From positions 1 through 30,611 of the IMG/VR virus record IMGVR_UViG_3300002144_000745: a stretch of DNA of 30,611 bases; one strand, given 5' to 3'. This stretch comes from a virus. The notes under the pieces are model-generated. The model did not search any database and had not been told where the DNA came from. It worked only from the letters and a program-made list of their open reading frames with translations. Shown piece by piece: positions 262-27,422 of this stretch (positions are counted from its first letter, which is position 1; every line of letters starts with the position of its first letter). The translations under genes and the position numbers were made by a program.

Positions 262-276
262 ATAGATATTTATCGG
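262..276 (-). promoter_or_regulatory. T4-type late promoter, minus strand
   Basis: Read on the minus strand this is CCGATAAATATCTAT followed at once by ATG. The TAAATA core (plus positions 267-272) lies five bases from the start codon. With T4 late spacing the first transcribed base would be the A of the ATG. The same 16 bases recur in the opposite orientation at 323-338. Confidence 0.7.
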
Positions 277-322
277 TACAAACCTTTCGAAAGCGCATCC
301 AACTGACAGTTTTTTACTACAT

Positions 323-338
323 CCGATAAATATCTATA
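323..338 (+). promoter_or_regulatory. T4-type late promoter for the tail operon
   Basis: CCGATAAATATCTATA holds the TAAATA core at 327-332, with a predicted start near 338. This gives a leader of about 24 nt that contains GAGGA (349-353), eight bases before the sheath ATG. It is the mirror copy of the promoter at 261-276. Confidence 0.7.
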
Positions 339-361
339 ACAGTTTTATGAGGATATGAAAC

Positions 362-3300
362 ATGGCACTAGTTTCCCCAGGCGTACAAGTTACAGTAACT
401 GATCAAAGTTATTACGCTCCTACATCAGTAGGGTCTGTAGCATACATTCTGCTCGCAACAGAACAAGATAAAATCGCTCCGGGCGGCGTATCGATCGCTC
501 CAGGCACAACCGCAGAAAATGCAGGATCCATTTATAACATCACAAGTCAACGAGACTTAGTGACTACATTTGGTACTCCTACATTTAAAACAACATCTGC
601 AGGGACTCCTATTAACGGTGACGAAAGAAACGAATACGGATTAATGGCTGCTTACAGCTTGTTGGGCGTAAGCAATTCTGTCTACGTACAGCGTGCAAAC
701 GTTGACCTGGGCCAACTAGGTGGTACTACAATACGACCATTAGGTGATCCAACCAACGGCGCACTGTGGTTAGATACGTCTGTTACAAATTGGGGTGTGT
801 ACGAGTGGAACGCAACCACACAAGCATTCTTTTTGGTGTCACCGTTAATTATTAACGATGCTGCCAGTTTGGAATCCAACATTACACCCAACGTTGGCGT
901 TGGTAGTATTGGGCAATTTGCAGTCAACACAGTTGCAAATACCAATCCAATATTTTACAAACCATATGATAACACATGGCAGTTAGTGGGTAATGTAGGT
1001 TGGCAAGCACGTATTCCTACCATCACTGGTAGCAACACCAGTGTGTCAATGACCGCTAATGCTAATATTACTATTAACACTACTAACGTCACTGTAGCAA
1101 CAGGCACTAACATAAGTGTAGTTAGCGCAGCGATCAATTCAGCAGCTATTACCGGCATTACTAGTCGCGTGAATAACAGCAGCCAATTGATTATCCACGT
1201 TACTGAGCTGGCAACAAGCAACGGATCAACTGCTGATGGCAAAATTGCAATCAGCAACGGAAACAACACGCCGTTAAGCGATTTAGGTATCACCGCAGGT
1301 ACTTACAACGGCCCAGCAGTTACTATCAGTCCATACTTCACTGTGCCTGCATATGAATCTGCTAACTTAGCAGCTAATTCCGGAAGACCATCAGGCAGTA
1401 TCTGGCAAAAAGCCAGTGTAATAGGTTCTGGCTTAAATGCAAGCGTAAAACAATATAACAGTGCATCGGATACTTGGGTTGCAAAAACTGTAAACGATTA
1501 TGCTAATGTGTTTGTAGCAACCTTTACATTAGACCCAACAGGTGGCGGCAGTAACTTAACTGAAGGCTCTGTATTTGTTGAATATGATGCATTCGCAGAA
1601 GATACCGGAGTTCAACCGCACATTGGTTCAAGACTATGGTATCGTAATAACACAGGTGCAACTACTGTTACCGGTAGTACATCTAGTCCTATCGCAGCAA
1701 ACGTTGGCGCAGCATTTACTTTAAAAACCAGAGCACTTGCTGGCGTGGTTACTACAACAGAATACACAGTTACTATCACCACAGCAACAGTGGCTGGATT
1801 CGTTGATGCAGTCAGCGCCGCAACTATTCCTTCTGTTACTGCAACGATTGCAACTGATGGCACAATGACATTGACTCACGCATTGGGCGGTGACATGTAC
1901 TTGACAGACGGCGCAGGAACTCCTTTGGCTAACGTGGGTATCGATTCAACTGCCACTGGGGTATACGAAGTATATCAAGAAGATGGTACTGCTATTTCTA
2001 ACGTACTTATTGCTTCTAATTGGGAACCAATTGCTGAACGAAACTTTACAGTGAGTTCATCACAAGTGTTTGTGGCACCGGCAAACGACACTTACTGGTA
2101 CTACAATGCGTTAACTCGCGCTGACATTATGATCAGCAACGGCACAGCTTGGCTTGGCTACGGGGTAGAAACCAATGATATTCGTGGATACAATTTATCT
2201 AGCACTGATGCAACCGGTCCACTTTTTGGTACAACTGAGCCAACAACACAAATTGATGGTACATTACTGGTATACGGTGACTTATGGATTGATACCAGCG
2301 ATTTGGAAAACTATCCTGCACTATACAGATATCAAAGTATTAACGGTATTGATCAGTGGGTTGCGATCGATACATCAGACAACACTGGACAAAATGGCAT
2401 TGTGTTTGCAGATGCACGTTGGGCGACTAGCGGCAGTACAAACCCAGTGACTGCTTCAATTCCTACGATTGCTGCACTGAAATTAAGTTCATATACAGAT
2501 TTGGACGTAATAGATCCTGGACTTTACCCACGTGGTATGCTATTGTGGAACACCAGAGCTAGCGGGTATAACGTAAAACAATACAAATCAAATTACTTTA
2601 CCGCAACTGCATATCCTGGTGAAAGCATTCCAGCAGAAACCGGCACTTGGACATCAGTGAGCGGATATAACACCGCAGGTGTAGTTCCAAATTTTGGACG
2701 CAGTGCACAAAGAGGTGTAATTGTTAGCGCACTACGCAGCGAGATTGACAGCAGCACAGCATTGCGCGAAGAAAGCAATATCTTCAACATCATTGCTTGT
2801 CCTGGCTATCCAGAACTAATGCCTAACATGGTGGCATTGAATGAAGACCGTGACAATACAGCGTTTGTGATCGGTGACACGCCATTGCGTTTGGCAGCAA
2901 CTGGCACAGCACTTCAGGCATGGGCCACTAACAGTGTAGGTGCAGTTGCAACCGGCGAACAAGGGTTGAATACAAGTAGTCCGTATTTGGGTATTTACTA
3001 CCCAAGCGGAATAACAAACGATTTGACCGGTAATCAGATTGTTGTGCCACCGAGCTATGCTGCATTGAGAACGTTTATCAAAAGCGATAATATCAGCTAT
3101 CCATGGTTTGCCCCTGCAGGAACTCGCAGAGGCTTAATTGATAACTTGAGTGCAATCGGTTACATTAACAGCACTAGTGGTGCATTTGTTAGTATAGGCG
3201 TGACACAAGGTCTTCGTGACACAATGTATAACAACAAGATCAATCCGTTTACCGCCTTGCCCGGAACTGGTTTAGTAGTATACGGACAAAAGACGTTAGC

Positions 3301-3673: not shown

Positions 3674-3677
3674 TACC

Positions 3678-4307: not shown

Positions 4308-4333
4308 AAAAGCCCACTTCGGTGGGCTTTTTT
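4308..4333 (+). terminator. Rho-independent terminator after gp19
   Basis: A ten-base-pair stem AAAAGCCCAC/GTGGGCTTTT is closed by a TTCG tetraloop (4318-4321) and followed by a T run. It ends the sheath-tube unit directly before the next late promoter. Confidence 0.93.
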
Positions 4334-4338: not shown

Positions 4339-4349
4339 TAAATATTTGT
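4339..4349 (+). promoter_or_regulatory. Late promoter, leaderless spacing
   Basis: The TAAATA core (4339-4344) plus TTTGT runs directly into the ATG at 4350. There is no Shine-Dalgarno, because the sequence upstream is the terminator. Confidence 0.65.
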
Positions 4350-6725
4350 ATGGCCTTATACAATGCAGATTTAAAACCGTTAGAGAATGGCACGACACAT
4401 TCATATGATCATGCCACGCGGCTATTCTTATCGGATAATTTTAGACTAGCACCCAAACAGTCGTTTTTATATTATGTTTGTATTAACGTAAATCAAGATG
4501 CGTTACAAAACATAATAGGCGGATTATCTAGCGATCCGGTCAGCAGCCAAACTTTAATCGAACAATATGAAACTGGCTTAATGGCCAAGCGAGTCGAGCT
4601 CCCCAGATTTAACGTACAGACTCGCAGTCTAAAAGCATATAACAGAAAAAACATATTTCAAACAGGTATCATGTATGATCCGCTGAGTATTACGTTTCAT
4701 GATGACGCTGCCGATACTGTGACTAAATTTTGGAATGATTTTTATACATACTATTATAGAGACAGTGACTATGATACCACTTTGTATACAGTACCGCATA
4801 AATATCAGTCCAGAACCAGAGAAGGCTGGGGATTTACACCACGCAATGGCAATCTAAAACCTTTCATCAGGGACATACAAATATTCAGTTTACACAATAA
4901 ACGTTTTACCGAATACCAATTGATTAATCCTGTTATCACCGCCTGGCGCCATGGCGAGCATGATAGTAGCGCCGGTAACGGCACGTTAGACAGCACAATG
5001 ACTGTGGATTTTGAAACAGTTAAATATCGCACAGGGTATGTAAATCCAGTTGATGTAAACGGCTTTGCTGTTATACATTACGATGATACACCTAGTCCTA
5101 TTAGTAACAGCACTACAAACATATTCACAGATGGCGGACTAATAGGTGCAATTGAAGGAACATCAACTGACTTGGCCAGACCCGATGGCACTGGCAGTGG
5201 TTCAGGAATTTTAAGTTCTATCTTAGATGCTTATCGTTTCTATAATAACATTAAAGATACTGATTTTAGACAAATCGGATCCATAGTATTAGGGCAAGTA
5301 GGAACGCAAATTTTAAATGGCGCAATAAATGGCGCAGTTAACAATGTATTCTTCCCCACATCTGGGTCAACGAGTCAGGTTTCCCCGCCAGCTGGTACAG
5401 TAGCACAGACATCATATGTAGCGCCAGGCAACAATGGGTCAGTAACAATTGGCGGAGTTGCAGCAGGAATAGCAACAGGTGTAGCAGCAAGTGTAGTTAA
5501 TAATGCAGTTAGCGCATTTTCTCAAGGTGTTAAAACGCAATCAGGTCCTCTGCCTAATCCCAGGTATAATACTGTATACCAGACCAGCAGCGGCACTCCT
5601 GCTATTTCTATAGATGCGCAAACTGGCCAACCAGTTACAAGTCAACAAACCGCATACCTTATAAATGCAACAACCGGCGAAATCGTATCTCAATTTCAAA
5701 CCGAAGGTACACAAAACGGTGGTTACTTAGGAGAAGGATCATTGACTACAAACTTGCAAAATTTAGTCAGTAGCACAGACCAAAATGGCAATGTGGTTAC
5801 TACCTACATTTATAACAACGGTGATCGGGCTTCGTTTGACGGCTTTGGTGCTCAATTATCGTTTGAGCCTGGCTCATTTACTAACCCATCAAATACAAAT
5901 ACAAATCCAACGACCCCACAGCAACTTGCTGCACAAGGACAAACCGTTAATACAAATCAAGTCCAGTATGCCGTTGACCCTACAACTGGATTAATTTACA
6001 CCGCAGGCGGCACAACCAGTGCATACGTGACTAATACACTGTCAGGCGTTGGTGGCGCTGTGGCAGGCGGCTACATCGGCAGTCGAGTATTCACTGGTTT
6101 GTCAGGTGTACTCGGAGATGGTGTTGTGGGGCAGACTGTAAGTGCAGCAGTAAGCGGCGTTGCAGGCGCAGTTGCTGGTCAAGCAGTGAATAATTTTTTA
6201 CAACCAATTGTCAACGGCGCAGTGGGCGGGGTAACTCAAGTGTTTGATAATGTCACGGGATCCATTAAAAACGTGGTAGGTAGTTGGTCTGGTAGTGGTG
6301 GATACGATTTTAATAATCCGCTTAATAACTCAGTTTCGCGAGTGTTTAACGGTGACGGCACAGAGACTCGCACCTTTAAAGATGGCAGTACTGGAATTTT
6401 CAGTGGCAAAGATCTTATATCATCCACTGCATCGACCGGCGGCGGCTTATTCAGCGGATTCGGCAACTGGTTTGGCGGCACAGCCGGAGCTAATTCCGAT
6501 AGTAGCATTTTAAACCCTGGGCGCGGAACTGGTTTGCTATTGGACGGATCCAGTAATCTGCTACAAGCTGATTCGGGTGGATTTGTGGTTTCTGGCGCCG
6601 GCGATACGTCATTGTTTGGTTCAATTTTTGGTACATCTTTATCCAAAGGCAGCGTATTTACTGCAGGTCCTGTGAATAATTTATATTCTTCCGGTAGTTA
6701 CGACGATAGTTTTTTCGTAGGTTAA
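4350..6725 (+). CDS. Tube-like/baseplate-region structural protein with long Gly/Ser/Ala-rich C terminus
   Basis: The first ~255 residues resemble the tube-fold family found beside gp19 in aquatic T4-like phages. Visible landmarks are THSYDHATRLFLSDNFRLAP, LPRFNVQTRSLKAYNRKN, ITFHDDAADTVTKFWNDFY, NPVITAWRHGEHD, and a closing VDFETVKYRTGYV. A role as tube initiator or baseplate-proximal tube element is inferred. Residues ~260-791 differ in character: low complexity, rich in Gly, Ser, Ala and Asn. They include two glycine-zipper-like hydrophobic runs (GGVAAGIATGVAASVV near residue 370 and GGAVAGGYIGSRVF near 570) and degenerate D.(Q/T)TG repeats. Total length is 791 aa. The start has no Shine-Dalgarno but a late promoter abuts it. 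The stop codon overlaps the next late promoter. Confidence 0.8.
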   Translation: MALYNADLKPLENGTTHSYDHATRLFLSDNFRLAPKQSFLYYVCINVNQDALQNIIGGLSSDPVSSQTLIEQYETGLMAKRVELPRFNVQTRSLKAYNRKNIFQTGIMYDPLSITFHDDAADTVTKFWNDFYTYYYRDSDYDTTLYTVPHKYQSRTREGWGFTPRNGNLKPFIRDIQIFSLHNKRFTEYQLINPVITAWRHGEHDSSAGNGTLDSTMTVDFETVKYRTGYVNPVDVNGFAVIHYDDTPSPISNSTTNIFTDGGLIGAIEGTSTDLARPDGTGSGSGILSSILDAYRFYNNIKDTDFRQIGSIVLGQVGTQILNGAINGAVNNVFFPTSGSTSQVSPPAGTVAQTSYVAPGNNGSVTIGGVAAGIATGVAASVVNNAVSAFSQGVKTQSGPLPNPRYNTVYQTSSGTPAISIDAQTGQPVTSQQTAYLINATTGEIVSQFQTEGTQNGGYLGEGSLTTNLQNLVSSTDQNGNVVTTYIYNNGDRASFDGFGAQLSFEPGSFTNPSNTNTNPTTPQQLAAQGQTVNTNQVQYAVDPTTGLIYTAGGTTSAYVTNTLSGVGGAVAGGYIGSRVFTGLSGVLGDGVVGQTVSAAVSGVAGAVAGQAVNNFLQPIVNGAVGGVTQVFDNVTGSIKNVVGSWSGSGGYDFNNPLNNSVSRVFNGDGTETRTFKDGSTGIFSGKDLISSTASTGGGLFSGFGNWFGGTAGANSDSSILNPGRGTGLLLDGSSNLLQADSGGFVVSGAGDTSLFGSIFGTSLSKGSVFTAGPVNNLYSSGSYDDSFFVG

Positions 6726-6734
6726 ATAACTATT
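6723..6734 (+). promoter_or_regulatory. Late promoter, leaderless spacing
   Basis: TAAATA (6723-6728) begins with the TAA stop of the preceding gene and is followed by ACTATT and the ATG at 6735. There is no Shine-Dalgarno. Confidence 0.65.
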
Positions 6735-7109
6735 ATGTACAGCACTAACGATCCGACTAATTTAAATACTACCAGCGGTAACAATCCTACCACGCGATAT
6801 TTTAATAATTTTTTTAAACCCACATATGCAGTCAGTCCCGAAACTAACGATGCCATTGTTAGTTATTTTCAGGAACAAACTGGCGATCTAGAAAGTGCAA
6901 GGCTGCTTGCACAAGCAGTATACGATACTGCGCTGTCTCAGAGAGAAGACCCGTTAGCAGTACTAGACCAATTCAGAGCACTACCACAAGGTGGGCTTAG
7001 TCCGTTTTTGGCTCTGTACTTGAACATCAGTCGAGTGCCCACAAGCCTATTGGGAGTGCAAAATACTCCTAGATCAAATCCATTAGTAACCAGAACTATT
7101 ATAGAATAA
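6735..7109 (+). CDS. Conserved small T4-like phage protein, function unknown
   Basis: This 124-aa soluble protein has no recognisable enzymatic motif. From memory it matches a small conserved family of T4-like cyanophages and pelagiphages. The shared landmarks are (Y)AVSPETNDAI, YFQEQTGDLESARLLAQAV, DPLAVLDQFRALPQG and a C-terminal LN(I/L)SRVPTSLLG. The middle is predicted helical. It sits between the tube-like gene and gp4, and its stop overlaps the gp4 start by one base (TAATG), so the two are translationally coupled. A structural or assembly role is plausible from context only. Confidence 0.8.
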   Translation: MYSTNDPTNLNTTSGNNPTTRYFNNFFKPTYAVSPETNDAIVSYFQEQTGDLESARLLAQAVYDTALSQREDPLAVLDQFRALPQGGLSPFLALYLNISRVPTSLLGVQNTPRSNPLVTRTIIE

Positions 7110-7543
7110 TGGGAAAATATGCTCAAGGCAAATTTCAAGTACAAAATGCCGAAAAATATATAGGTAAAGGCACGCCTACATATCGAAGTAGTTGGGAGTT
7201 TGCATTCATGCAGTTCTGTGACAATAATCCAGCAGTGGTACAATGGGCCAGTGAATCGATTCATGTTAACTACCGTAATCCTTTTACCGGAAAAAATACC
7301 ATATATGTCCCGGACTTTTTAATAATATATATCGACAAAAACGGCAAACGCCACGGCGAAGTAATTGAAGTTAAGCCCACCAAAGAAACCACAATGGAAG
7401 CGGCAAAAACCCAACGTGACAAAGCCGCAGTAGCGTTGAACATGTTCAAGTGGGAAGCAGCCAGGAAGTTTTGCGCCACTCAAGGTCTAAAGTTTAGAGT
7501 AGTCAACGAACAAGACATTTTTCACGGTGCCAAAAAGCGTTAA
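7109..7543 (+). CDS. gp4: Head completion protein (T4 gp4-like), PD-(D/E)xK fold
   Basis: The length of 144 aa fits T4 gp4 (about 150 aa), which finishes DNA-filled heads before tail joining. The nuclease-fold signature is visible: SSWEFAFM with E30, VPDF with D69, and EVIEVKP with E87 and K89. This gives the E...D...ExK arrangement of TnsA/PD-(D/E)xK enzymes. The N-terminal GKFQVQNAEKYIGKGTPTYR is typical of the family. It is coupled to the upstream gene by a one-base overlap. A homing endonuclease gene follows after eight bases. Confidence 0.9.
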   Translation: MGKYAQGKFQVQNAEKYIGKGTPTYRSSWEFAFMQFCDNNPAVVQWASESIHVNYRNPFTGKNTIYVPDFLIIYIDKNGKRHGEVIEVKPTKETTMEAAKTQRDKAAVALNMFKWEAARKFCATQGLKFRVVNEQDIFHGAKKR

Positions 7544-7551
7544 ATAGTTGT
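7541..7551 (+). promoter_or_regulatory. Late promoter, leaderless spacing
   Basis: TAAATA (7541-7546) overlaps the gp4 stop codon and is followed by GTTGT and the ATG at 7552. Confidence 0.6.
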
Positions 7552-8721: not shown

Positions 8722-8727
8722 TAAATA
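8722..8727 (+). promoter_or_regulatory. Late promoter core with leader
   Basis: TAAATA lies 19 bases before the ATG at 8747. The predicted transcript would start near 8733 and include AATAGGAAC, a Shine-Dalgarno. Confidence 0.5.
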
Positions 8728-8746: not shown

Positions 8747-9259
8747 ATGAAGTCTTTTAAAGCCTATCTAACAGAATCAGTACGTACATATGATTTTAGA
8801 GTACGTATCGCCGGTGATGTAACAACAGAAGCCATTGCGAAAATGAAGTCAGCGTTAGAGTTATATAAAATGGAAAGTATGAGTAAACCAAAGCGGTTAC
8901 CTATCCAAGAAACACATCTATTCCCTAACATGGGACCAGTTGAAGTCAATGTAATTGACGTTAGTGTTGCATATCCTTGCAACGATGATCAAATTCGCAA
9001 TGTGCTGGCTGCTTGTGGTTGTTTTGCAGCCTCATGCATTCGTGTTAACGGAAAAGGCGGCGCATTTGAAGCTATTCTCGACGGCACAGAAGTTAGTAAT
9101 AAAGGCGGCAAAGAAGGCGAAGCAGTTCTCGACGAAGAAGAAATGAAAGCAGAACCTGTTCCCGACGACCTAGTAGGCGAAGCACGTATTCCAAGCCTAA
9201 TTAAAGAACTAGAAGCCACACGCAAATACGAATACCCAACAGCAGGAAGTGAAAAGTAA
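8747..9259 (+). CDS. Head-region protein with capsid-targeting-like N terminus
   Basis: This 170-aa protein belongs to a conserved family of aquatic T4-like phages with no assigned function. It opens with MKSFKAYLTE|S. This resembles the T4 internal-protein capsid targeting sequence (MKTYQEFIAE|A), and LTE fits the (L/I)-x-E site cut by the T4 prohead protease. The body has an alternating pattern (YDFRVRIAGDVTTEAIAKM; VEVNVIDVSVAYPCNDDQI) suggesting a ferredoxin-like alpha/beta fold, then an acidic tail rich in E and K. TAGGAAC precedes the start. The next gene begins one base after its stop. A packaged or prohead-core role is inferred. Confidence 0.75.
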   Translation: MKSFKAYLTESVRTYDFRVRIAGDVTTEAIAKMKSALELYKMESMSKPKRLPIQETHLFPNMGPVEVNVIDVSVAYPCNDDQIRNVLAACGCFAASCIRVNGKGGAFEAILDGTEVSNKGGKEGEAVLDEEEMKAEPVPDDLVGEARIPSLIKELEATRKYEYPTAGSEK

Positions 9260-12747: not shown

Positions 12748-12758
12748 TAAATACTATT
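12748..12758 (+). promoter_or_regulatory. Late promoter, leaderless spacing, for terminase
   Basis: TAAATACTATT abuts the ATG at 12759. TAAATACTATT is what strong T4 late promoters look like, and the predicted +1 is the A of the start codon. This also decides the start against the upstream ATG at 12690. Confidence 0.75.
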
Positions 12759-14327
12759 ATGGCTAAATCATTAGAAGGCGTTTTAATTAAAAAACCTCAT
12801 TCTCGGGAATCTTATACCGAGAAGCAGCTCCGCGAATTTGCATTGTGTGCAGATCCAATTAACGGCCCGCACTATTTTATGGAAAACTTTTTCCATATTC
12901 AGCATCCCACCAGAGGCGGCATAGCGTATGTTCCTTACAGTTATCAAACAACACTGGTTGATACATATCATAAAAATCGTTTTAGCATCAGTATGTTGCC
13001 CAGACAAACGGGCAAGTCGACCACTGCCGCAGGATTCCTGTTATGGTATGCAATGTTTGTTCCAGACAGTACCATTTTAGTTGCTGCACACAAATACACA
13101 GGTTCACAAGAGATTATGCAACGTATACGATATGCGTACGAAGCATGCCCGGACCATATACGTGCAGGTGTTACAAGTTATAACAAAGGTAGTTTAGAAT
13201 TTGACAACGGTAGTCGTATAGTTAGTACAACAACAACTGAAAACACTGGACGAGGTATGAGTATTACGCTGCTATATCTAGACGAGTTTGCGTTTGTGCG
13301 TCCTACTATTGCCAAAGAGTTCTGGACTGCTATTAGTCCTACACTGGCAACTGGTGGTAAGGCTATTATTACATCAACACCCAACAGTGACGAAGATCAG
13401 TTTGCATTGATTTGGCGCCAAGCCAACAAGACATTAGATGAATACGGAAATCAGACCCGTTTGGGCATAAATGGATTTAAAGCATTTAGTGCACATTGGA
13501 GCGAACATCCAGATAGAGACCAACAATGGGCAGATAATATGCTAGCACAACTAGGAGAAGAACGTTTCAGACGTGAGATTGGTTGCGAATTTATTATCTA
13601 TGACGAAACGCTAGTCAATCCACTTATGCTAACCGAAATGGAAGGTGTGGAACCTGTACAGAAACAAGGACAAGTAAGGTGGTATAGTTTTCCTAAAAAA
13701 GGAAATGTATATCTGGTTGCATTAGATCCTAGTTTGGGCACAGGCGGAGACTATTCCGCTATACAAGTATTAGAACTGCCCAGTATGAAACAAGTTGCAG
13801 AATGGCAGCACAACAAAACTCCTATTCAACAGCAGGTAAAAATACTCAGCGAAATTACCAAGTACCTAGTAGACGAAATTGGATGCAGCGATACTGACAT
13901 ATATTACAGTACAGAAAACAATACTATCGGGGAAGCAGTATTGGTCACTGTGCAAGAACATGGCGAAGAAAATATCAAAGGTATATTTTTAAGCGAACCG
14001 GCCAAACCTGGGGTTGGTAGAAGATACCGCAAAGGATTCAACACCAGTAACAGAAGTAAACTTACTGCCTGTGCTAAATTTAAAAGTCTTGTAGAAGGCA
14101 AGAAATTACACATAGCAAGTAAACCTTTGGTCAGTGAGATGAAAAACTTTGTTGCCAACGGAAGCAGTTACGCTGCAAAACCCGGCGAACACGATGACCT
14201 TATTATGTCTATGTTGCTGGCAGTGCGAATGGCAGTGCTATTAAGGGAGTTCGATCCTAATTTAGATGAACAATTACGAGACGGGGGTGATGAAATACTA
14301 TTGCCGATGCCGTTTATCATGGTATGA
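12759..14327 (+). CDS. gp17: Terminase large subunit (T4 gp17-like)
   Basis: This 522-aa packaging motor combines an ATPase and a nuclease domain; T4 gp17 is 610 aa. Residues 80-88 hold the Walker A-like LPRQTGKST, and residues 171-178 the Walker B LLYLDEFA with catalytic E176. The coupling segment is IITSTPNS. The RNase H-like nuclease domain shows D323 in VALDPSLGTGGD, E386 in STENNT and D479/D480 in GEHDDLIM. The frame is open from an ATG at 12690. That start would require a leader made of an untypical hydrophobic 23 residues, and the late promoter falls inside it, so 12759 is preferred. The next gene's ancestral start overlaps the stop as ATGA. Confidence 0.95.
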   Translation: MAKSLEGVLIKKPHSRESYTEKQLREFALCADPINGPHYFMENFFHIQHPTRGGIAYVPYSYQTTLVDTYHKNRFSISMLPRQTGKSTTAAGFLLWYAMFVPDSTILVAAHKYTGSQEIMQRIRYAYEACPDHIRAGVTSYNKGSLEFDNGSRIVSTTTTENTGRGMSITLLYLDEFAFVRPTIAKEFWTAISPTLATGGKAIITSTPNSDEDQFALIWRQANKTLDEYGNQTRLGINGFKAFSAHWSEHPDRDQQWADNMLAQLGEERFRREIGCEFIIYDETLVNPLMLTEMEGVEPVQKQGQVRWYSFPKKGNVYLVALDPSLGTGGDYSAIQVLELPSMKQVAEWQHNKTPIQQQVKILSEITKYLVDEIGCSDTDIYYSTENNTIGEAVLVTVQEHGEENIKGIFLSEPAKPGVGRRYRKGFNTSNRSKLTACAKFKSLVEGKKLHIASKPLVSEMKNFVANGSSYAAKPGEHDDLIMSMLLAVRMAVLLREFDPNLDEQLRDGGDEILLPMPFIMV

Positions 14328-14870: not shown

Positions 14871-14883
14871 TAAATATATTACC
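14871..14883 (+). promoter_or_regulatory. Late promoter, near-leaderless spacing
   Basis: TAAATA (14871-14876) is followed by seven bases and the ATG at 14884. There is no Shine-Dalgarno. Confidence 0.6.
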
Positions 14884-16281
14884 ATGCTTGAAATAGAAAA
14901 AATATCCGAAAATTTGTTTGACAAAATCCGCAGTCGATTCGCTAATGTCAGCATCGGCGACGAAACTGCCAAAGCCACAGTTGACCCGACCAAGGCTCGA
15001 TTCTTTAACTTTAACTTTGTAGTTGACGATAGAGAGTACGGTAATATCACAATCAGCTTAGTGGATTCACAGAGTTTAAAAGTGTATTACGACCAAGCAA
15101 TTGGCAAAGACATGAGTAAATCAGATCAGTTAGCATGGTATACTTTCCTCAAAGATATAAGATTATTTGCAAAACGCAACCTATTAACATTTGATATCAG
15201 GGACATCGCAAAAAGCGGCCTCAACGTCAAAGACTTACACCACTTAAACAAAGATGCAGATGTATACGATTCGAACGAACTGAACGAAAACAAACTGTAT
15301 GGCACAACACGCAGTAGTTATCAACAGTTAGAATCTGTACGTATTATTGCAAGACATAGCAAGCCGGTGGACGAACAACAACTTGGTGCAAGAGCAAGAA
15401 ATATAAAAGCAATCTACATTGAGAACTCGGAAGGTGAGAGATTTAAACTACCCGAAGGCACCACACTTAACGGCGCCAGAGCATATGCCCGACATGTTAA
15501 AAACGGCGGTGTAATACATGATGAGTTTGGCCAACACGTCGGTCAAATGATCAAAGAGATGGCTGATCTTAAATTGTTTGTTCGCAACATGCGCGGCAAG
15601 ACTTTTGAAGATACAGAAACCATGGCCATGGTAGAAGCAGCAATTGATCATTATGGCGCAATGCACCGAGACCTTTTTGGAATTAGAGGACAAAAAGGAT
15701 ATACTCGTTACCGAGAATCATGGTCAGCAGATCAGGCGGTAATGGATGACATCGACTTAGAAGAATTAAAAGACAGGTTTACACGCAGAGTATTTGACGA
15801 ACGTTTAGTTGATGCGTTACCTGTAGTACAACGTGCTTACCAGGAGCGTAAAAGTCGTGTGGGTGAAGAATTTGAAGCATGGGCTAACAATCTGATCGAA
15901 GACGATGATACCGAAGTAGAAGTCAGTGGCGAAACAATGTTTGCCAATGACATGGACAACGCCACAGGAAACAACGAAATCGACGTTCTACTAGACAAGA
16001 ACGATTTTACGTACACAGTACAAGACGGCAAATATACATTTGACAGCGGTGAGGAACTAGAACGTGCTAAAGACGTTATCGCGGCGTTCGACCCCAAAAT
16101 GCAATTCCCGCCAATGGGTATTGCTAGTCGCAATAATGTATATGGAGCAAGCGGCAACGATTTCGAATTAGGCGGCTACACTGGCGGCGTTATGGAAAAT
16201 GAACAGGTACAACCACCTGCACCAGTAGCAAAAGAATTTGATATTAGTTTTCTCAAAACGTTGGCTGGGTTATCTAAATAA
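14884..16281 (+). CDS. Conserved large T4-like phage protein, function unknown
   Basis: This 465-aa protein belongs to a family I know from aquatic T4-like phages and which is commonly thought to be structural. Landmarks are ENKLYGTTRSSYQQLESVRI, ARHSKPVDEQQLGARARNIK, IYIENSEGERFKLPEGT, NGARAYARHVKNGGV and FGQHVGQMIKEMADLKLF. No catalytic motif is visible. The C terminus is an isolated short motif, FLKTLAGLSK, after a proline-rich linker (QVQPPAPVAKE). The same LAG motif occurs in the proteins at 9261 and 11942, so this tail may be a docking peptide. The stop codon overlaps the late promoter of the next gene. Confidence 0.8.
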   Translation: MLEIEKISENLFDKIRSRFANVSIGDETAKATVDPTKARFFNFNFVVDDREYGNITISLVDSQSLKVYYDQAIGKDMSKSDQLAWYTFLKDIRLFAKRNLLTFDIRDIAKSGLNVKDLHHLNKDADVYDSNELNENKLYGTTRSSYQQLESVRIIARHSKPVDEQQLGARARNIKAIYIENSEGERFKLPEGTTLNGARAYARHVKNGGVIHDEFGQHVGQMIKEMADLKLFVRNMRGKTFEDTETMAMVEAAIDHYGAMHRDLFGIRGQKGYTRYRESWSADQAVMDDIDLEELKDRFTRRVFDERLVDALPVVQRAYQERKSRVGEEFEAWANNLIEDDDTEVEVSGETMFANDMDNATGNNEIDVLLDKNDFTYTVQDGKYTFDSGEELERAKDVIAAFDPKMQFPPMGIASRNNVYGASGNDFELGGYTGGVMENEQVQPPAPVAKEFDISFLKTLAGLSK

Positions 16282-16287
16282 TCAACT
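16275..16287 (+). promoter_or_regulatory. Late promoter, near-leaderless spacing
   Basis: TAAATA (16275-16280) overlaps the end of the preceding gene and is followed by seven bases and the ATG at 16288. Confidence 0.55.
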
Positions 16288-17331
16288 ATGAAAAAAACTC
16301 ATGGCAATTGGACCACGATTGAAATGCCACCTGGGTATCTGGACGATATAAATCAAGATCTGAAGTATCTGAGAAAATCTCACAATTTACCCAGCGAAAA
16401 GAATCACATCACTAATCGGTGTCAGATTCCATTAACTACATTAAACATTGATCACAAAGGCAGAGTATTTTTGTGCAGGTGCGATGGCTGGTTACCGTAC
16501 TCGGCTGGTCATATCACTGAGTTTTTTAGTCTGGCAGATATACACAATGCCGATACGTCTAAGCTGATAATTAAATCTGTGAATGATCAGAAGTTCACGT
16601 ATTGTGCTACTACTACATGTCGGATTGATAAATCATCTAATCTTGTGGATTTGTCTACTTTGGAAATCTATATAGGAATCGATATTAGTTGCAATTATTC
16701 ATGTCCTAGTTGCAGAGAAAGAATAATTTTTGATCAATCTTCGGAATATTTAGACGAAAAAAAACGATGGGCAGACTCGATTATTGATATTATAAAAAAC
16801 GAAACTGCTAAAAGTATAACTGTGATTATAGGTTCTAACGGTGAAACTTTTGTCAGCAAAGTGTATCTTTATATAATCAAAGAGTTAAAAAACTTGGACC
16901 ATGTAAAATTTGTGATTAACACGAATGCTAGTTCCGTAATAGACCACAAGGATTTGTTGGACGATGTGTTTTTTAAAAAAGTAAAACAGTTTTCCGTCAG
17001 CATTGATGCGGCAACAAAAGACACATATGAACACCTGAGGCGTCCGGGAAAATGGGAAAATTTACTCAAAAATCTAAATTATATTAATTCATTTGATTTG
17101 CCTGTCACTGCTAACTTTGTAATACAAAAATATAATTTTAGAGAAATGCTGCCGTTCGTTGATTTTTGTAAACAGTATGGTATGTTGATAAATTTCACTT
17201 TGATGACCGATTGGGGTACATACCACAACGTCAACGAACAATTGGTGCACTTGCCCGAATCTCCTCATTATGACGAATTTCGGCAAATTGTGGATGCATT
17301 ACCCGAAAATTTGGCAAACCAAGTAGCTTGA
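16288..17331 (+). CDS. Radical SAM protein with N-terminal SPASM-like cysteine domain
   Basis: This 347-aa protein has the radical SAM cluster motif CNYSCPSC (C135, C139, C142; Cx3Cx2C), preceded by LEIYIGIDIS. The downstream pattern is typical of the family: IGSNGETF, FVINTNAS, and FSVSIDAATKDTYEHLR. Such enzymes use a 4Fe-4S cluster to cleave S-adenosylmethionine and drive radical chemistry, often on peptides. The N-terminal ~115 residues hold C45, C63, C65, C106 and C111 in CQIPLTTLNIDHKGRVFLC and FTYCATTTC. This looks like the SPASM/twitch auxiliary-cluster region that normally sits C-terminal. Domain order is therefore permuted relative to the usual form. The substrate is unknown. Neighbours are structural upstream and gp32 downstream. 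Confidence 0.85.
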   Translation: MKKTHGNWTTIEMPPGYLDDINQDLKYLRKSHNLPSEKNHITNRCQIPLTTLNIDHKGRVFLCRCDGWLPYSAGHITEFFSLADIHNADTSKLIIKSVNDQKFTYCATTTCRIDKSSNLVDLSTLEIYIGIDISCNYSCPSCRERIIFDQSSEYLDEKKRWADSIIDIIKNETAKSITVIIGSNGETFVSKVYLYIIKELKNLDHVKFVINTNASSVIDHKDLLDDVFFKKVKQFSVSIDAATKDTYEHLRRPGKWENLLKNLNYINSFDLPVTANFVIQKYNFREMLPFVDFCKQYGMLINFTLMTDWGTYHNVNEQLVHLPESPHYDEFRQIVDALPENLANQVA

Positions 17332-17470: not shown

Positions 17471-17487
17471 AAAGGAAAATTATCATG
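17471..17487 (+). promoter_or_regulatory. Translation initiation region of gp32
   Basis: AAAGGAAAATTATCATG is identical, including the next four bases, to the uvsX initiation region at 20370. It holds a Shine-Dalgarno nine to ten bases before the start codon. Confidence 0.7.
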
Positions 17488-18474
17488 GCAACATCTTTAG
17501 CAGAAATCCGCGCCAAGTTGGCGAATCAAGAAAACCGTTCAGCAGGCGGCAGCACATCCGGTGGAGACAATGGCATCTACGCTCATTGGAACATCGCAGA
17601 AGGAACAACAGCTCGAATTCGATTCCTTCCCGATGCAAACACAAGCAACACTTTCTTTTGGGCAGAACGCCTAATGATCAAATTGCCTTTCGCAGGCATT
17701 AAAGGTCAAGTAGACAGCAAAAATACTTTTGTGCAAGTGCCATGTGTTGAAATGTACGGAGCAGCCTGTCCAATATTGGCAGAAGTTCGTACTTGGTTTA
17801 AGGATCCAGCACTAGAGGATATGGGTCGTAAGTACTGGAAGAAAAAATCTTACTTGTTCCAAGGATTTGTGCGTGATAATCCCATGGCAGACGACAAGAC
17901 CCCAGAAAATCCAATCCGTCGTTTCATTATCAGCCCGCAAATTTTTAACCTGATTAAAAATGCGCTGATGGATCCAGAATTGGAGAACATGCCCACCGAC
18001 TACCAAGGCGGATTAGATTTCAACGTCAAAAAAACAAGCAAAGGCGGCTACGCTGATTACAGCACAAGTACTTGGGCACGTAAAGAAAGCTCGCTGAGTT
18101 CTGAAGAAGCACAAGCAATTGAGCAATACGGCTTGTATAACCTGACAGACTTTTTGCCCAAGCAACCCAGTGATGCAGACTTGAAGATCATCAAAGAAAT
18201 GTTCGAAGCATCAGTCAATGGTGAAGCATACGATCCAGAACGTTTTGGATCGTACTACAAGCCAGCTGGTTTGCGCAATGACACTGCCTCGACATCTGTT
18301 GCACAGGCAGCGCCTGCTCCTCAAGTAAACTCCGCACCAGTAGCACCAGTAGCAGCGGCTGTTGTTGAGGTGGCAAGGGATGAGCCAGTTGTATCAGCGG
18401 CAGTGGCCGAAGCTAAACCTTCTAGCCAACGTGCTGAGGATATCCTGGCAATGATTCGCAATCGTTCGAAGTAA
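17485..18474 (+). CDS. gp32: Single-stranded DNA-binding protein (T4 gp32-like)
   Basis: This 329-aa protein coats single-stranded DNA in replication and recombination and works with UvsX and UvsY. The N terminus MATSLAEIRAKLANQENRS and the core IYAHWNIAEGTTARIRFLPD, KYWKKKSYLFQGFV and PIRRFIISPQIFNLI match the gp32 family. The Zn-knuckle region of T4 gp32 is reduced here to C87 and C95 (VPCVEMYGAACPI), so zinc binding is doubtful. The C terminus is an Ala/Pro/Val-rich linker ending in a conserved-looking helix, SQRAEDILAMIRNRSK. It has two host-type promoters and a good ribosome-binding site, in line with expression before late genes. Confidence 0.93.
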   Translation: MATSLAEIRAKLANQENRSAGGSTSGGDNGIYAHWNIAEGTTARIRFLPDANTSNTFFWAERLMIKLPFAGIKGQVDSKNTFVQVPCVEMYGAACPILAEVRTWFKDPALEDMGRKYWKKKSYLFQGFVRDNPMADDKTPENPIRRFIISPQIFNLIKNALMDPELENMPTDYQGGLDFNVKKTSKGGYADYSTSTWARKESSLSSEEAQAIEQYGLYNLTDFLPKQPSDADLKIIKEMFEASVNGEAYDPERFGSYYKPAGLRNDTASTSVAQAAPAPQVNSAPVAPVAAAVVEVARDEPVVSAAVAEAKPSSQRAEDILAMIRNRSK

Positions 18475-20369: not shown

Positions 20370-20386
20370 AAAGGAAAATTATCATG
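20370..20386 (+). promoter_or_regulatory. Translation initiation region of uvsX
   Basis: AAAGGAAAATTATCATG is identical to the gp32 region at 17471, and identity continues through the second codon. Confidence 0.7.
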
Positions 20387-21499
20387 GCAAAACCATTTGA
20401 CGTAAGCAAATTTAGAAAATCAATTACAAAAAGCATCGAAGGACTCAGTGTGGGATTTAACGATCCTACTGATTGGGTAAGTACCAGCAACTATGCGCTG
20501 AACTATCTGATCAGTGGCGACTTTAACAAAGGCATCCCGCTTGGCAAAGTCACTGTGTTTGCTGGAGAATCTGGCGCAGGTAAATCATTTATCTGTGCTG
20601 GCAATTTGGTGGCAAATGCACAAAAACAAGATATCTTCCCCATCTTAATTGACACTGAAAATGCATTAGATGAAAAATGGCTACATGCACTTAATGTAGA
20701 CACCAGTGAAGACAAATTGCTAAAATTAAACATGGCAATGATCGACGACGTGGCTAAAATGATTTCAGAGTTTGTGAAGGAATACAAGACCCTACCGGAA
20801 GAAGGTCGTCCTAAAGTATTGTTTGTATTAGACTCACTGGGAATGTTGTTAACCCCCACAGACGTTAACCAGTTCAATGCTGGTGACATGAAGGGCGACA
20901 TGGGTCGTAAACCTAAAGCACTGACTGCATTGGTACGCAACTGTGTAAACATGTTTGGTGACTTGAACTTGGGATTAGTGTGCACTAATCACACATATGC
21001 CAGTCAAGACATGTTTGACCCCGATGACAAAATCTCAGGCGGACAGGGCTTTATCTATGCATCGAGTATTGTTGTTGCAATGAAGAAGATGAAGCTGAAG
21101 GAAGATGAAGACGGCAACAAGATTGCACAGGTTAAAGGTATACGTGCTGGTTGTAAGATCATGAAAACCCGCTATGCCAAACCGTTTGAAAGTGTTCAAG
21201 TTAAGATTCCATACGAAACAGGTATGAATCCATACAGCGGATTAACTGATTTGTTTGAAGGCAAGTTATTGCTTAAAAAAGAAGGAAATAGTTTAGTCTA
21301 CACCACAGCCGACGGCGAAGTTATCAAGAAGTTCCGTAAAGGGTGGGAGCGCAATGATGACGGTTGCTTAGATACTGCAATGCTGGATATCACGTCCAAC
21401 CCACACAAATTCGACAAACTTGTCGACGAAAAAGCTGATAAAGCCGCAATAGAAGCAGACTTTGCAGCAGTAGAAGAACAAGAGGAAATCTCAGAATGA
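20384..21499 (+). CDS. uvsX: UvsX recombinase (RecA/Rad51-like)
   Basis: This 371-aa strand-exchange ATPase (T4 UvsX is about 390 aa) drives recombination-dependent replication together with gp32 and UvsY. Walker A is at residues 61-68 (GESGAGKS). Walker B is around 145-150 (VLFVLDS). The sensor region is LGLVCTNHTYAS, and the L2-like segment is SGGQGFIYASSIVVAMKK. The C terminus is acidic (AAVEEQEEISE), as in many recombinases where it modulates DNA access. It overlaps the next gene as ATGA, giving translational coupling. It shares its ribosome-binding sequence with gp32. Confidence 0.95.
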   Translation: MAKPFDVSKFRKSITKSIEGLSVGFNDPTDWVSTSNYALNYLISGDFNKGIPLGKVTVFAGESGAGKSFICAGNLVANAQKQDIFPILIDTENALDEKWLHALNVDTSEDKLLKLNMAMIDDVAKMISEFVKEYKTLPEEGRPKVLFVLDSLGMLLTPTDVNQFNAGDMKGDMGRKPKALTALVRNCVNMFGDLNLGLVCTNHTYASQDMFDPDDKISGGQGFIYASSIVVAMKKMKLKEDEDGNKIAQVKGIRAGCKIMKTRYAKPFESVQVKIPYETGMNPYSGLTDLFEGKLLLKKEGNSLVYTTADGEVIKKFRKGWERNDDGCLDTAMLDITSNPHKFDKLVDEKADKAAIEADFAAVEEQEEISE

Positions 21500-21726: not shown

Positions 21727-22179
21727 ATGTGGTACAACAAAGTAGTAGAAGACCTTGGTAATATACCTATGTTCATTAATTATTATGAAAATGAACTACA
21801 AGAAGCCAAATACGATTGCACAGTCAAAGGCAACTTGGAAAAAAATATTGCTTCTTTGCCTGGTTTAACAGAGCATAGATTTAACCAGCTTCAAGAGATT
21901 GAGGCTGTGTTAAACTATCTCAACATTCAACTGCGAAAGATACGCAGACGTCATTTTCAAAAGTATCTTGAAAACTATGCAAGAGCATTGACTAGTAGGG
22001 ATGCTGAAAAGTATGTAGATGGTGAGGACGAAGTTATTGACTTTGAAACTATTATTAACGAAGTGGCACTTGTTCGCAACAAGTGGCTGGGAGTATTAAA
22101 AGGTCTCGAAAGCAAAAACTTTATGCTGGGACATGTAACCAGACTCAGGTCTGCTGGCATGGAAGATGTCACTCTATAA
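21727..22179 (+). CDS. uvsY: UvsY-like recombination mediator
   Basis: This is a 150-aa helical protein, and T4 UvsY is 137 aa. UvsY helps UvsX displace gp32 from single-stranded DNA. The C-terminal block, with NKWLGVLKGLESKNFMLGHV then TRLRSAGMED, corresponds to the conserved oligomerisation end of UvsY-family proteins. RKIRRRHFQKYLENYARALTS supplies the basic DNA-binding helix. It sits three bases after the 75-aa gene in the uvsX operon, which supports the call. The stop codon is part of a perfect TATAAATA late promoter for the next gene. Confidence 0.85.
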   Translation: MWYNKVVEDLGNIPMFINYYENELQEAKYDCTVKGNLEKNIASLPGLTEHRFNQLQEIEAVLNYLNIQLRKIRRRHFQKYLENYARALTSRDAEKYVDGEDEVIDFETIINEVALVRNKWLGVLKGLESKNFMLGHVTRLRSAGMEDVTL

Positions 22180-22187
22180 ATATTTGC
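22175..22187 (+). promoter_or_regulatory. Perfect T4 late promoter, leaderless spacing
   Basis: TATAAATA (22175-22182) is the full T4 late consensus, followed by TTTGC and the ATG at 22188. It overlaps the uvsY stop codon. Confidence 0.75.
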
Positions 22188-22949
22188 ATGAAAACAATTG
22201 TAATTTGCACAGGGGGATATGACCCGATTCATTCCGGGCACATAGAATATTTTAAAGCAGCCCGAGCATTAGGTGATATGCTTATCGTTGGACTTAATAG
22301 TGATGACTGGTTGACTCGTAAAAAAAGCAGACCATTCATGAACTACGAAGAACGTTTTTTGATAACTGCAAATTTAAAAATGGTAGACAGTGTCATTGCC
22401 TACGACGACACTGATAACAGCAGTTGCGGCGCGATCGAGCGTGTTCTTGAAAAATATCCTGATGCAAAAATAATTTTTGCCAACGGAGGTGACCGGACAA
22501 AAGATAATATTCCAGAGATGAGAATAAAGTCAGACCGTCTAGAGTTTAAATTTGGAGTCGGTGGCACTAATAAAGCCAATTCTAGTAGTTGGATCTTAGA
22601 AGACTGGAAGGCTCCAAAGACAGTCAGACCCTGGGGATACTATCGGGTACTGCACGAAGTGCCGGGTATGAAAGTTAAAGAACTGACAGTGGACCCCGGA
22701 CAAAAACTCAGCATGCAACGACATGCCAATCGAGCAGAGTACTGGGTTGTCAGCGAAGGCTCCGGGGTAGTGTATAGCCAACTACCCAATGGGTACACTA
22801 TGCCTCCGACGGAGATAACCAAACATTCGGAAATTAAAATACCTGTAAGCGAATGGCATCAACTTTCAAATGAAGGAGAAATTCCGTTGAAAGTAGTAGA
22901 AATACAATACGGTAACAGGTGCGAAGAAGAAGATATCGAACGCAAATAA
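22188..22949 (+). CDS. Nucleotidyltransferase-cupin fusion (cytidylyltransferase + sugar-phosphate isomerase-like cupin)
   Basis: This is a 253-aa fusion. Residues 1-~135 are a nucleotidyltransferase of the RfaE/TagD cytidylyltransferase superfamily: GGYDPIHSGHIEYFKAAR with HSGH at 15-18, and RPFMNYEERFLITANL. Residues ~145-250 are a cupin like the C-terminal domain of ManC-type mannose-phosphate enzymes: RPWGYYRVLHE, SMQRHANRAEYWVVSEG (H179 and E184 as metal ligands), and EWHQLSN (H224). Together they suggest activation or rearrangement of a sugar-phosphate. The target could be host surface glycan or a virion glycan, which I cannot tell. The frame is open to 22083, but the late promoter fixes the start at 22188. 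A terminator follows. Confidence 0.88.
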   Translation: MKTIVICTGGYDPIHSGHIEYFKAARALGDMLIVGLNSDDWLTRKKSRPFMNYEERFLITANLKMVDSVIAYDDTDNSSCGAIERVLEKYPDAKIIFANGGDRTKDNIPEMRIKSDRLEFKFGVGGTNKANSSSWILEDWKAPKTVRPWGYYRVLHEVPGMKVKELTVDPGQKLSMQRHANRAEYWVVSEGSGVVYSQLPNGYTMPPTEITKHSEIKIPVSEWHQLSNEGEIPLKVVEIQYGNRCEEEDIERK

Positions 22950-23733: not shown

Positions 23734-23739
23734 TAAATA
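23734..23739 (+). promoter_or_regulatory. Late promoter core upstream of the 23763 gene
   Basis: AATAAATAC contains TAAATA, 23 bases before the ATG at 23763. A second, degenerate copy ATATACTATT abuts the ATG and resembles the terminase promoter TAAATACTATT, so the true start is unsure. Confidence 0.5.
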
Positions 23740-25160: not shown

Positions 25161-25178
25161 CCAGCGATACTATTGAAT

Positions 25179-26249
25179 ATGAAATTAACACCTATTCAAA
25201 ATTTTTCAAATCTTGGGGTATATGTTGACGACTTGGATTTTCAAAATTTAAGTGTAGAGCAATGGGTTGATTTAAAAAATCAACTATATTCTAAATACCT
25301 GTTGATTATTTTTAGAAATGCAAACTTACCGTTAACTGATTATGCAACTAGGATGTCGCAGTGGGGCCAGCATTCCAACGGTCTTAAATACTTCTTTAAA
25401 AAGTATAATCTACCTGCTGCTGAATTTTATTTGAAATTTTCCGAAGGTAATCTGTTGCCACTTTACCGTCATCTATACGATATGGCAGACAAATATAATA
25501 TTTCATTTGATGATTTAGATATTATTGAAAACAGTATAGGAAAAATTGACAAATTATCAGATTCTGATAGTAACCTCATAGTCAACAGGCTTAAAGGTGC
25601 AACTGAAACAAATGAGCCGCGCGATACTAATACAGTATTTCTCGACGGTGAGCTTGCTTGGCATAGCGACGAGAGCATGGATCTTGCGTTTTGTGATACC
25701 ATTGGATTGTATGGAAATAACGCAATGACTGCCAGTGCCACGGGCTTCGTCACTACCAGTGGGTGGTATGAAAGCCAATCTAATAGTTTTAGATCTGAGT
25801 TGGATTCGATGATTGCAAAACACAAATATCAACCAACTAAATTCAATAAAAATCAAGATCCTTTAGAGGAACGAATAATAGCCTGCCAAAATGGATCAGA
25901 TACCGAAATTCCATTGGTTATTAACAGTCCTGGCGGATTTACTGGCTTACATTATCCATTGAATAGCGTTGTTGGAATTGTCGGCATGTCCGAATCAGAC
26001 TCGCGTTCTCTTTTTAACTATATTAATAAAACATTATTTGTCGAAGAGAATATGTATGATCATTGGTACCAACAAGATAACGACTTGGTATTGTTTGATA
26101 ATTCGATAACATTGCATAGAAGATTAGGCAGTACAATTAATCGTGTGGCCTATCGAACCGCATGGTATCTACATGAGCCGACAGCTGATAGATATTTTCA
26201 GCCAGAGTATCAAGAAAAATATCAATTTATATTGTCTGAGTATAATTAA
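25179..26249 (+). CDS. TauD/TfdA-type 2OG-Fe(II) dioxygenase
   Basis: This 356-aa enzyme is related to taurine dioxygenase. The motif WHSDESMD gives the iron ligands H162 and D164. The distal ligand H313 lies in SITLHRRLGSTI, and R326 in RVAYRTAWYLHE would bind 2-oxoglutarate. The long spacing between HxD and the last His is typical of TauD-like proteins and differs from the small oxygenase at 14343. The substrate is unknown; members in phages have been seen but not explained as far as I know. The frame also opens with TTG at 25173, but the ATG at 25179 is preferred. It is the last gene before the tRNA region. Confidence 0.85.
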   Translation: MKLTPIQNFSNLGVYVDDLDFQNLSVEQWVDLKNQLYSKYLLIIFRNANLPLTDYATRMSQWGQHSNGLKYFFKKYNLPAAEFYLKFSEGNLLPLYRHLYDMADKYNISFDDLDIIENSIGKIDKLSDSDSNLIVNRLKGATETNEPRDTNTVFLDGELAWHSDESMDLAFCDTIGLYGNNAMTASATGFVTTSGWYESQSNSFRSELDSMIAKHKYQPTKFNKNQDPLEERIIACQNGSDTEIPLVINSPGGFTGLHYPLNSVVGIVGMSESDSRSLFNYINKTLFVEENMYDHWYQQDNDLVLFDNSITLHRRLGSTINRVAYRTAWYLHEPTADRYFQPEYQEKYQFILSEYN

Positions 26250-26256
26250 ATTTAAC

Positions 26257-26285
26257 TTGACGATAACTCAAAGTTTTGCTATAAT
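26257..26285 (+). promoter_or_regulatory. Sigma70-type promoter for tRNA cluster
   Basis: TTGACG (26257-26262), a 17-bp spacer and a perfect TATAAT (26280-26285) lie 20 bases before the first tRNA. Confidence 0.85.
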
Positions 26286-26304
26286 ATCTACTTAGTTAAG
26301 TGTT

Positions 26305-26379: not shown

Positions 26380-26391
26380 AATAATTATTAG

Positions 26392-26420
26392 TTGACAATA
26401 AATTGATTTTTTGTTATACT
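26392..26420 (+). promoter_or_regulatory. Sigma70-type promoter between tRNAs
   Basis: TTGACA (26392-26397), a 17-bp spacer and TATACT (26415-26420) lie 20 bases before tRNA-Leu. Confidence 0.8.
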
Positions 26421-26439
26421 ATGGCATAGTAAGAAATTT

Positions 26440-26524
26440 GCTCGAGTGATGGAACGGTATACATAACAGACTTAAAATTTGTCGCCGAAATGGCTTGTGG
26501 GTTCGAATCCCACCTCGAGTACCA
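26440..26524 (+). tRNA. tRNA-Leu (TAA)
   Basis: The acceptor pair GCTCGAG/CTCGAGT is followed by encoded ACCA. The anticodon arm ACAGA-CTTAAAA-TTTGT gives TAA. A long variable arm (class II) and T-loop TTCGAAT are present. Confidence 0.92.
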
Positions 26525-26545
26525 ATAATTTTAATTTAATGTCCG

Positions 26546-27289
26546 ATGCTAAAAGAACAAGTAACATGGGTGCATCACTGGAGCGATAGAACTTTTAGTT
26601 TTAAAACCACAAGGAGTCAGAGCTTCAAGTTCTATGCAGGAGAGTTTGTCATGATTGGCTTAACAGTCGATGGTAAAAACATTCTTCGTGCATACAGCGT
26701 GGTGAGCCCGCCATGGAGTGAAGAGTTGGAATTTTTAAGTATTAAAATTCCCAACGGCGCATTGACAAGTCAGCTGCAACATATTGTAGTAGGTGATGAA
26801 GTTGTGATTGCACCCAAGTCCACTGGCACGTTGAGAAACGATGCACTGCTTAAAGGTGGTGAACTATGGTTACTGTCAACAGGCACCGGACTTGCGCCTT
26901 TTATGAGCTTGATTAGAGATTTAGAAACACTGGAAACCTGGAGTAAGATCCATGTTGTACACAGTGTAAGACACAGTAAGGATTTAGCCTACTACGCAGA
27001 CTTGTCAACAGCATTTAAAGACCATCCTCAAGATGGCGATCTGCATGACATGGTTGCAGCAGTGTTAGACTATAAAACTATCCTTACGGGTAGAGGAGAC
27101 AGACGTATTACAACTCAGTTGGCGATAGGTGAGATGCCAATCGATGTAGTACGGGACAAAGTCATGCTGTGTGGTAACATGGAGTTTAACCAACAGGTTG
27201 CTGGCTGGTGCGAACATCATGGCATGAAAGAAGGAAGTTTACGAGAGCCTGGGCAATATATAATTGAACGGGCATTTGTAGACAAATAG
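26546..27289 (+). CDS. fpr: Ferredoxin-NADP+ reductase (Fpr-type)
   Basis: This 247-aa FAD enzyme passes electrons between NADPH and ferredoxin or flavodoxin. The full length is close to bacterial Fpr (about 257 aa). FAD-binding RAYSVVSP (48-54) comes first, then LEFLSIKIPNGALTSQLQ. The NADP-binding part has LLSTGTGLAPFMSLIRD (109-125) and MLCGN. The C terminus EPGQYIIERAFVDK is diagnostic for proteobacterial Fpr (Azotobacter/Pseudomonas type, from memory). It sits between tRNA-Leu (21 bases upstream) and tRNA-Arg (17 bases downstream), and has no clear ribosome-binding site. This looks like a host gene picked up together with tRNA genes. It could supply electrons to iron-sulfur enzymes such as the radical SAM protein (inference). 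Confidence 0.92.
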   Translation: MLKEQVTWVHHWSDRTFSFKTTRSQSFKFYAGEFVMIGLTVDGKNILRAYSVVSPPWSEELEFLSIKIPNGALTSQLQHIVVGDEVVIAPKSTGTLRNDALLKGGELWLLSTGTGLAPFMSLIRDLETLETWSKIHVVHSVRHSKDLAYYADLSTAFKDHPQDGDLHDMVAAVLDYKTILTGRGDRRITTQLAIGEMPIDVVRDKVMLCGNMEFNQQVAGWCEHHGMKEGSLREPGQYIIERAFVDK

Positions 27290-27306
27290 GTAACTTGACA
27301 TATTTT

Positions 27307-27381
27307 CTGGCGTTCGTATAGTGGACAATACAGGGAGCTTCTACCTCCTAAACGTGGGTTCGATTCCTGCACGCCGGACCA
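27307..27381 (+). tRNA. tRNA-Arg (TCT)
   Basis: The acceptor pair CTGGCGT/ACGCCGG is followed by encoded ACCA. The anticodon arm GGGAG-CTTCTAC-CTCCT gives TCT. The T-loop is TTCGATT. Confidence 0.88.
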
Positions 27382-27393
27382 TTTAAATTGAGC

Positions 27394-27422
27394 TTGACAA
27401 AAAAAGATAAATAAACTACAAT
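27394..27422 (+). promoter_or_regulatory. Sigma70-type promoter overlapping a late-type core
   Basis: TTGACA (27394-27399), a 17-bp spacer and TACAAT (27417-27422). The spacer contains TAAATA (27408-27413), seven bases before the ATG at 27421. Host-type transcription would start near 27429 and end at the terminator near 27619, giving an RNA of about 190 nt. Confidence 0.75.

Follow-up and report, generated by a model that had tools for sequence, protein, structure and literature searches.

The window, meaning here the whole 30.6-kb stretch of viral DNA analysed, encodes a tail sheath, a tail tube, a gp4-like head closure protein, TerL, gp32, UvsX and UvsY, together with 11 tRNAs, and is a fragment of a jumbo myovirus of the T4 superfamily. 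Its nearest isolates belong to the PA5oct group (TerL about 53% identical), followed by Phosso and Atu_ph07; a nucleotide search of the phages collection found no near relative, and a TerL scan of GTDB genomes found no relative. The late region also carries metabolic genes, which code for a radical SAM protein (16288-17331), a cytidylyltransferase/mannose-6-phosphate isomerase-like protein (22188-22949) and a TauD-type dioxygenase (25173-26249).

Nine open reading frames of the window start very close to a TAAATA hexamer (Table 1). A direct scan retrieved the TAAATA-N5..7-ATG arrangement at all nine starts listed in the preliminary description, with a spacer of 5 nt in five cases, 6 nt in one and 7 nt in three, and none of them has a Shine-Dalgarno (SD) sequence between the box and the ATG. 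As also described, genes with a more distant TAAATA, at 362 (29 nt) and 8747 (19 nt), do have an SD-like AGGA/GGA. The number of starts where the box overlaps or directly follows an upstream stop codon had been given as six and is corrected to five: the box overlaps the stop at 6735, 7552, 16288 and 22188, and 14884 comes directly after one. A sixth overlap was sought at 12759, where no open frame of any namable length ends in the box. Among the remaining starts, 4350 is preceded by a terminator and 27421 by a tRNA, and 261, on the minus strand, is divergent from 362. The 46-aa frame at 27421 is the weakest of the nine; it is part of a compact module (27408-27619) associating a tRNA-Arg, a late-type box, this short frame and a terminator-like hairpin, accctggactaaacacccagggtttttt.

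Table 1. TAAATA boxes, terminator and control genes of the window
Feature	Position	Strand	Gene or context
TAAATA core, spacer 5 to ATG 261(-)	267..272	-	HNH-endonuclease-like ORF, incomplete at the window edge; diverges from the 327 promoter
TAAATA, SD-led class, spacer 29, SD-like AGGA	327..332	+	tail sheath gene at 362
Intrinsic terminator aaaagcccacttcggtgggctttttt	4308..4333	+	ends 5 bases before the 4339 box
TAAATA + 5 nt, predicted leaderless promoter	4339..4349	+	tail-tube-like gene 4350-6725
TAAATA + 6 nt, ATG 6735	6723..6734	+	TAA is the stop of gene 4350-6725
TAAATA + 5 nt, ATG 7552	7541..7551	+	TAA is the stop of the gp4-like head-closure gene 7109-7543
TAAATA, SD-led class, spacer 19, aataggaac	8722..8727	+	gene 8747-9259
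TAAATA + 5 nt, ATG 12759	12748..12758	+	TerL
TAAATA + 7 nt, ATG 14884	14871..14883	+	virion structural gene; directly after the preceding stop
TAAATA + 7 nt, ATG 16288	16275..16287	+	radical SAM protein; overlaps the preceding stop 16279-16281
gp32-like single-strand DNA binding protein, control	17485..18474	+	SD-led (aaagga), no close TAAATA
UvsX-like recombinase, control	20384..21499	+	SD-led
TAAATA as TATAAATA + 5 nt, ATG 22188	22177..22187	+	cytidylyltransferase/mannose-6-P isomerase-like; TAA is the stop of the uvsY-like gene
TAAATA 23 nt before ATG 23763, long class	23734..23739	+	
TAAATA + 7 nt, 46-aa ORF, ATG 27421	27408..27420	+	after tRNA-Arg; terminator-like hairpin near 27592-27619

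It is the position of TAAATA in the window, not its overall frequency, that is non-random. The hexamer is not over-represented in the whole window (30 found, 38 expected), whereas seven ORF starts have it at a spacer of 4-8 nt, against 0.43 ± 0.64 (maximum 3) when these upstream regions were dinucleotide-shuffled 300 times, a test in which neither the 46-aa ORF nor the one truncated at the window edge is counted. The relatives behave likewise. Short spacing is seen in nearly every one of 80 TerL-related IMG/VR contigs, and three large contigs were tested singly, to keep orthologues from being counted repeatedly. At spacers of 4-8, 9-17 and 18-30 nt, respectively, G001 (354 kb) has 36, 6 and 51 sites against 4.7 ± 2.1, 8.5 and 12.4 expected; G003 (202 kb) has 13, 1 and 24 against 2.2, 3.7 and 5.3; and G005 (108 kb) has 13, 4 and 12 against 2.1, 3.7 and 5.7. 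The genome-wide enrichment of the short distance over shuffled controls, on which the preliminary description had made its proposal depend, is thus present in the large relatives. Simply counting TAAATA-N4..8-ATG and the reversed pattern over whole records proved too blunt in some relatives (22 against 22 in G002), hence the use of ORF-based tests.

The distance from TAAATA to ATG is two-peaked, with an SD-less peak at 4-8 nt, an SD-bearing peak at 18-30 nt and few sites in between. Pooling 215 records gave 394 distinct sites at 4-8 nt (233 of them at 5), 54 at 9-17 and 274 at 18-30, with genes taken from a simple ORF finder and orthologues and related sequences included in these counts. An SD of at least 4 nt precedes 72-76% of the genes with spacers of 18-24, 44% of those without TAAATA and only 6% of the short class, which is below the 14% of random positions. 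Short sites use ATG (448), with GTG and TTG at background level, which agrees with leaderlessness although it is weak as a test.

Low GC content (40%), and the fact that TAA is itself a stop codon, could suggest that the pattern merely reflects AT-rich junctions where TAA stops meet ATG. Besides the shuffle tests on the window and the three contigs, this reading is contradicted by PA5oct, T4, Atu_ph07 and CBB, which have a lower GC content than the window and yet lack the pattern, and by the single-base variants of equal composition, which are not enriched. The statistics already refute it, and the likelihood left to it is close to nil.

When TAAATA was compared with its 18 single-base variants (19 hexamers), clear enrichment at 4-8 nt was confined to TAAATA itself and TAAGTA. 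TAAGTA, second at spacer 5 in the pooled relatives (53 sites) and without any such site in the window, is a probable variant late promoter. This hexamer survey also bears on the idea that TAAATA near the ATG would be no promoter at all but an AU-rich element by which SD-less genes are translated. AU-rich, unstructured regions do aid SD-less initiation. However, single-base variants with an unchanged A+T content show no enrichment, and TAAATA, with the gA extension common to the short and long classes, is also found 18-30 nt upstream of SD-led genes. It is absent before recombination and replication genes, and the hexamer is identical to the T4-like late-promoter core. A pure translation element is thus very improbable.

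T4 late promoters, which depend on gp55, gp33 and gp45 and have the sequence TATAAATA, share with the present boxes the core hexamer, the specificity for virion genes and a gp55 homologue. In T4, the late box spans -13 to -6 (PMC1524935) and the T at -13 is not required (PMC1524935, PMC2988020). The window has a single complete TATAAATA, at 22175, and its relatives have gaTAAATA as their consensus instead. G001 encodes a gp55-family late sigma factor (PHROG 12791, E = 2e-81), and homologues are found in 9 of 14 large relative contigs, the window being a fragment without gp55. A gp44-like clamp loader was found as well, and a T4 gp45 query gave no match. In G009 (197766-199568, minus strand), the gp55-like match is split into two pieces about 960 bases apart within one open frame of 615 aa, perhaps because of an intein or another in-frame insertion.

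The geometry of the T4 box gives a prediction for the start of transcription. Since this box ends at -6, the +1 position is expected on the sixth base after it, which for a spacer of 5 is the A of the ATG; leaderless late mRNAs are therefore the best reading. A gp55-family phage sigma factor would read the TAAATA boxes as T4-type late promoters and would start on the A of the start codon for spacers 4 and 5, and about 3 nt before it for spacers 7 and 8. Of note, a purine is present at the fifth or sixth base after the box at 23/23 spacer-8 sites and 56/57 spacer-7 sites, and position -3, the fifth base for spacer 7, is an A in 84% of spacer-7 and 83% of spacer-8 sites, compared with 55% in other genes. 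The resulting mRNAs would be leaderless or near-leaderless (5'-AUG or 5'-ACUAUG), devoid of SD and translated by leaderless initiation. SD-led genes would have the identical promoter type with the box 18-30 nt upstream, the choice between both forms being set gene by gene. Leader lengths measured in L. cremoris are also two-peaked, with none of 4-14 nt (PMC10986495), as is the TAAATA-ATG spacing in these phages; the near-empty 9-17 nt zone would offer independent support for a poor translation of leaders of about 3-12 nt.

The promoters could also be real while longer read-through mRNAs give rise to most of the protein, through coupling at the overlapping stop codon or through initiation independent of an SD, the leaderless species being incidental. 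About half of the short-class genes start within 25 nt of an upstream stop and 17% have the stop inside the box, so that translational coupling is possible. Yet 12% of short genes have a terminator hairpin ending just upstream of the box, as compared with 0.8% of genes without TAAATA. Gene 4350 is among them: its terminator, which was found by a purpose-written hairpin script and missed by the general terminator scan, lies so close to the box that no space is left for an SD-bearing leader. The SD depletion of the short class, which genes without TAAATA do not show, also argues against read-through, and overlapping stop/start junctions account for 1% of the short class versus 32% of genes without TAAATA. 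This explanation is thus quite unlikely. In polycistronic runs, genes may additionally be transcribed from promoters lying further upstream.

Leaderless late mRNAs (0-3 nt), produced by T4-type late promoters placed at the ATG, with a longer spacing for SD-led genes and a form specific to each gene, are in our view highly probable. On comparative sequence evidence, this proposal of the preliminary description is well supported by the two-peaked spacing, the SD depletion, the conserved A at the predicted +1, the terminators directly before the promoter, the specificity for virion genes and the gp55 homologues.

The short form is not distributed evenly among late genes. TerL and several other virion proteins mostly have it: spacers of 4-8 nt are found in 82/143 TerL orthologues, 95/127 orthologues of the virion gene at 14884 and 39 of the 41 copies of a 77-aa gene located between portal and protease. 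The portal is short in 8/35 cases, and orthologues of gene 8747-9259 are long in 58 cases and short in 12. The major capsid protein (0/73 short, 73/73 with SD), the scaffold-like gene (0/73 short, 71/73 with SD), the tail tube (0/63, TAAATA lying farther upstream in 59) and the tail sheath (0/30) never have it. No short site was seen in 273 orthologues of gp32, UvsX, UvsY and UvsW, including 107 of gp32 and 91 of UvsX.

The absence of the short form from capsid, scaffold, sheath and tail tube indicates that late translation is two-tiered. It speaks against a phase-wide switch, and the earlier suggestion of a general late strategy selecting 70S initiation is not upheld. Capsid, scaffold, tube and sheath are abundant parts of the T4-type virion. 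Since they avoid the short form, the latter is most simply seen as a compact and probably lower-output arrangement, the output part resting on T4 copy numbers. Promoter and start are packed into 14-19 bases, often with the upstream stop codon inside the box. Counter to a lower-output role, some presumably low-copy genes (portal, the 8747 gene) often have the long form.

A phage-encoded ribosomal protein bS21 is present in 7 of the 14 large relatives, for example in G001 (232992-233144, minus strand), where it starts with TAAATA-aagcact-ATG, a spacer-7 late promoter, and in G003 (111767-111931, plus strand), where it has the long SD-led form. A two-tier programme could be imagined in which box position makes low-copy genes leaderless and abundant ones SD-led while the phage tunes the ribosome, for instance by bS21; we regard it as doubtful. 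IF3, another possible helper, is encoded in only 1 of the 14 contigs; in this 328-kb relative (G010, 275072-275656; L355, L362), IF3-like and bS21 genes are adjacent.

The short class is essentially absent from eight cultivated relatives, T4 included. Their 49-kb regions contain one short site in PA5oct, one in SCTP-2 and none in Phosso, Atu_ph07, T4, CBB, syn9 and Vibrio 2.275.O. In T4 and the seven others the box lies mostly farther upstream (commonly 18-40 nt), whereas in the window group a 5-nt spacer lacking an SD is the most frequent. On a TerL tree of 164 sequences, the short form is found throughout the clade of about 55% identity or higher, within which PA5oct branches. The label "short" requires about 30 changes on this tree, as contigs are short and counts small, and a single origin does not emerge from it. 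PA5oct, a Pseudomonas phage of the Arenbergviridae, has a similar gene order, but short spacers are not enriched in it (1 observed, 1.3 expected); its place inside the short-spacer clade suggests that the form has been lost. When three further TerL proteins were used to look for a cultivated member of this clade, the searches again led to PA5oct or Phosso. The sole short site of the PA5oct region studied precedes gp262 (L082:44986; NC_071039 144985), with a perfect TATAAATA, cgtgt and ATG and without SD; according to its record, gp262 is a virion protein identified by mass spectrometry.

Leaderless late mRNAs are already known, since most middle and late mRNAs of the Thermus phage phiYS40 are leaderless (reviewed in PMC3594737); the version based on T4-type late promoters would be new. 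The likeness lies in the leaderless late mRNAs, predicted here from sequence. The phiYS40 host and promoter system are unrelated, and leaderlessness is there a near class-wide rule accompanied by IF2/IF3 changes. A leaderless majority of middle and late genes is not found in the window group, which unlike phiYS40 mixes in a large SD-led late class including the abundant virion proteins, with UvsX and gp32 also SD-led. Leaderless genes of bacteria are commonly recognised by a -10 box located some 10-12 bp upstream of their start codon (Zheng et al. 2011, PMC3160421); such boxes are of the host sigma-70 type, whereas a single phage late-sigma hexamer is used here. The late promoters of phiKZ, another jumbo phage, have TATG at the start point, with +1 on the G, and are recognised by a multisubunit RNA polymerase of the phage (PMC4666361) and not by the gp55 system. 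A literature search, which missed most subscription journals, found no published report of leaderless mRNAs from T4-type late promoters.

If true, this would be the first known leaderless late expression in the T4 superfamily, across a broad and mostly uncultured clade of jumbo phages. It would provide a natural experiment in which leaderless and SD-led translation are compared behind one promoter type. It would also account for SD-less genes that puzzle gene callers, and it predicts the exact 5' ends of their mRNAs.
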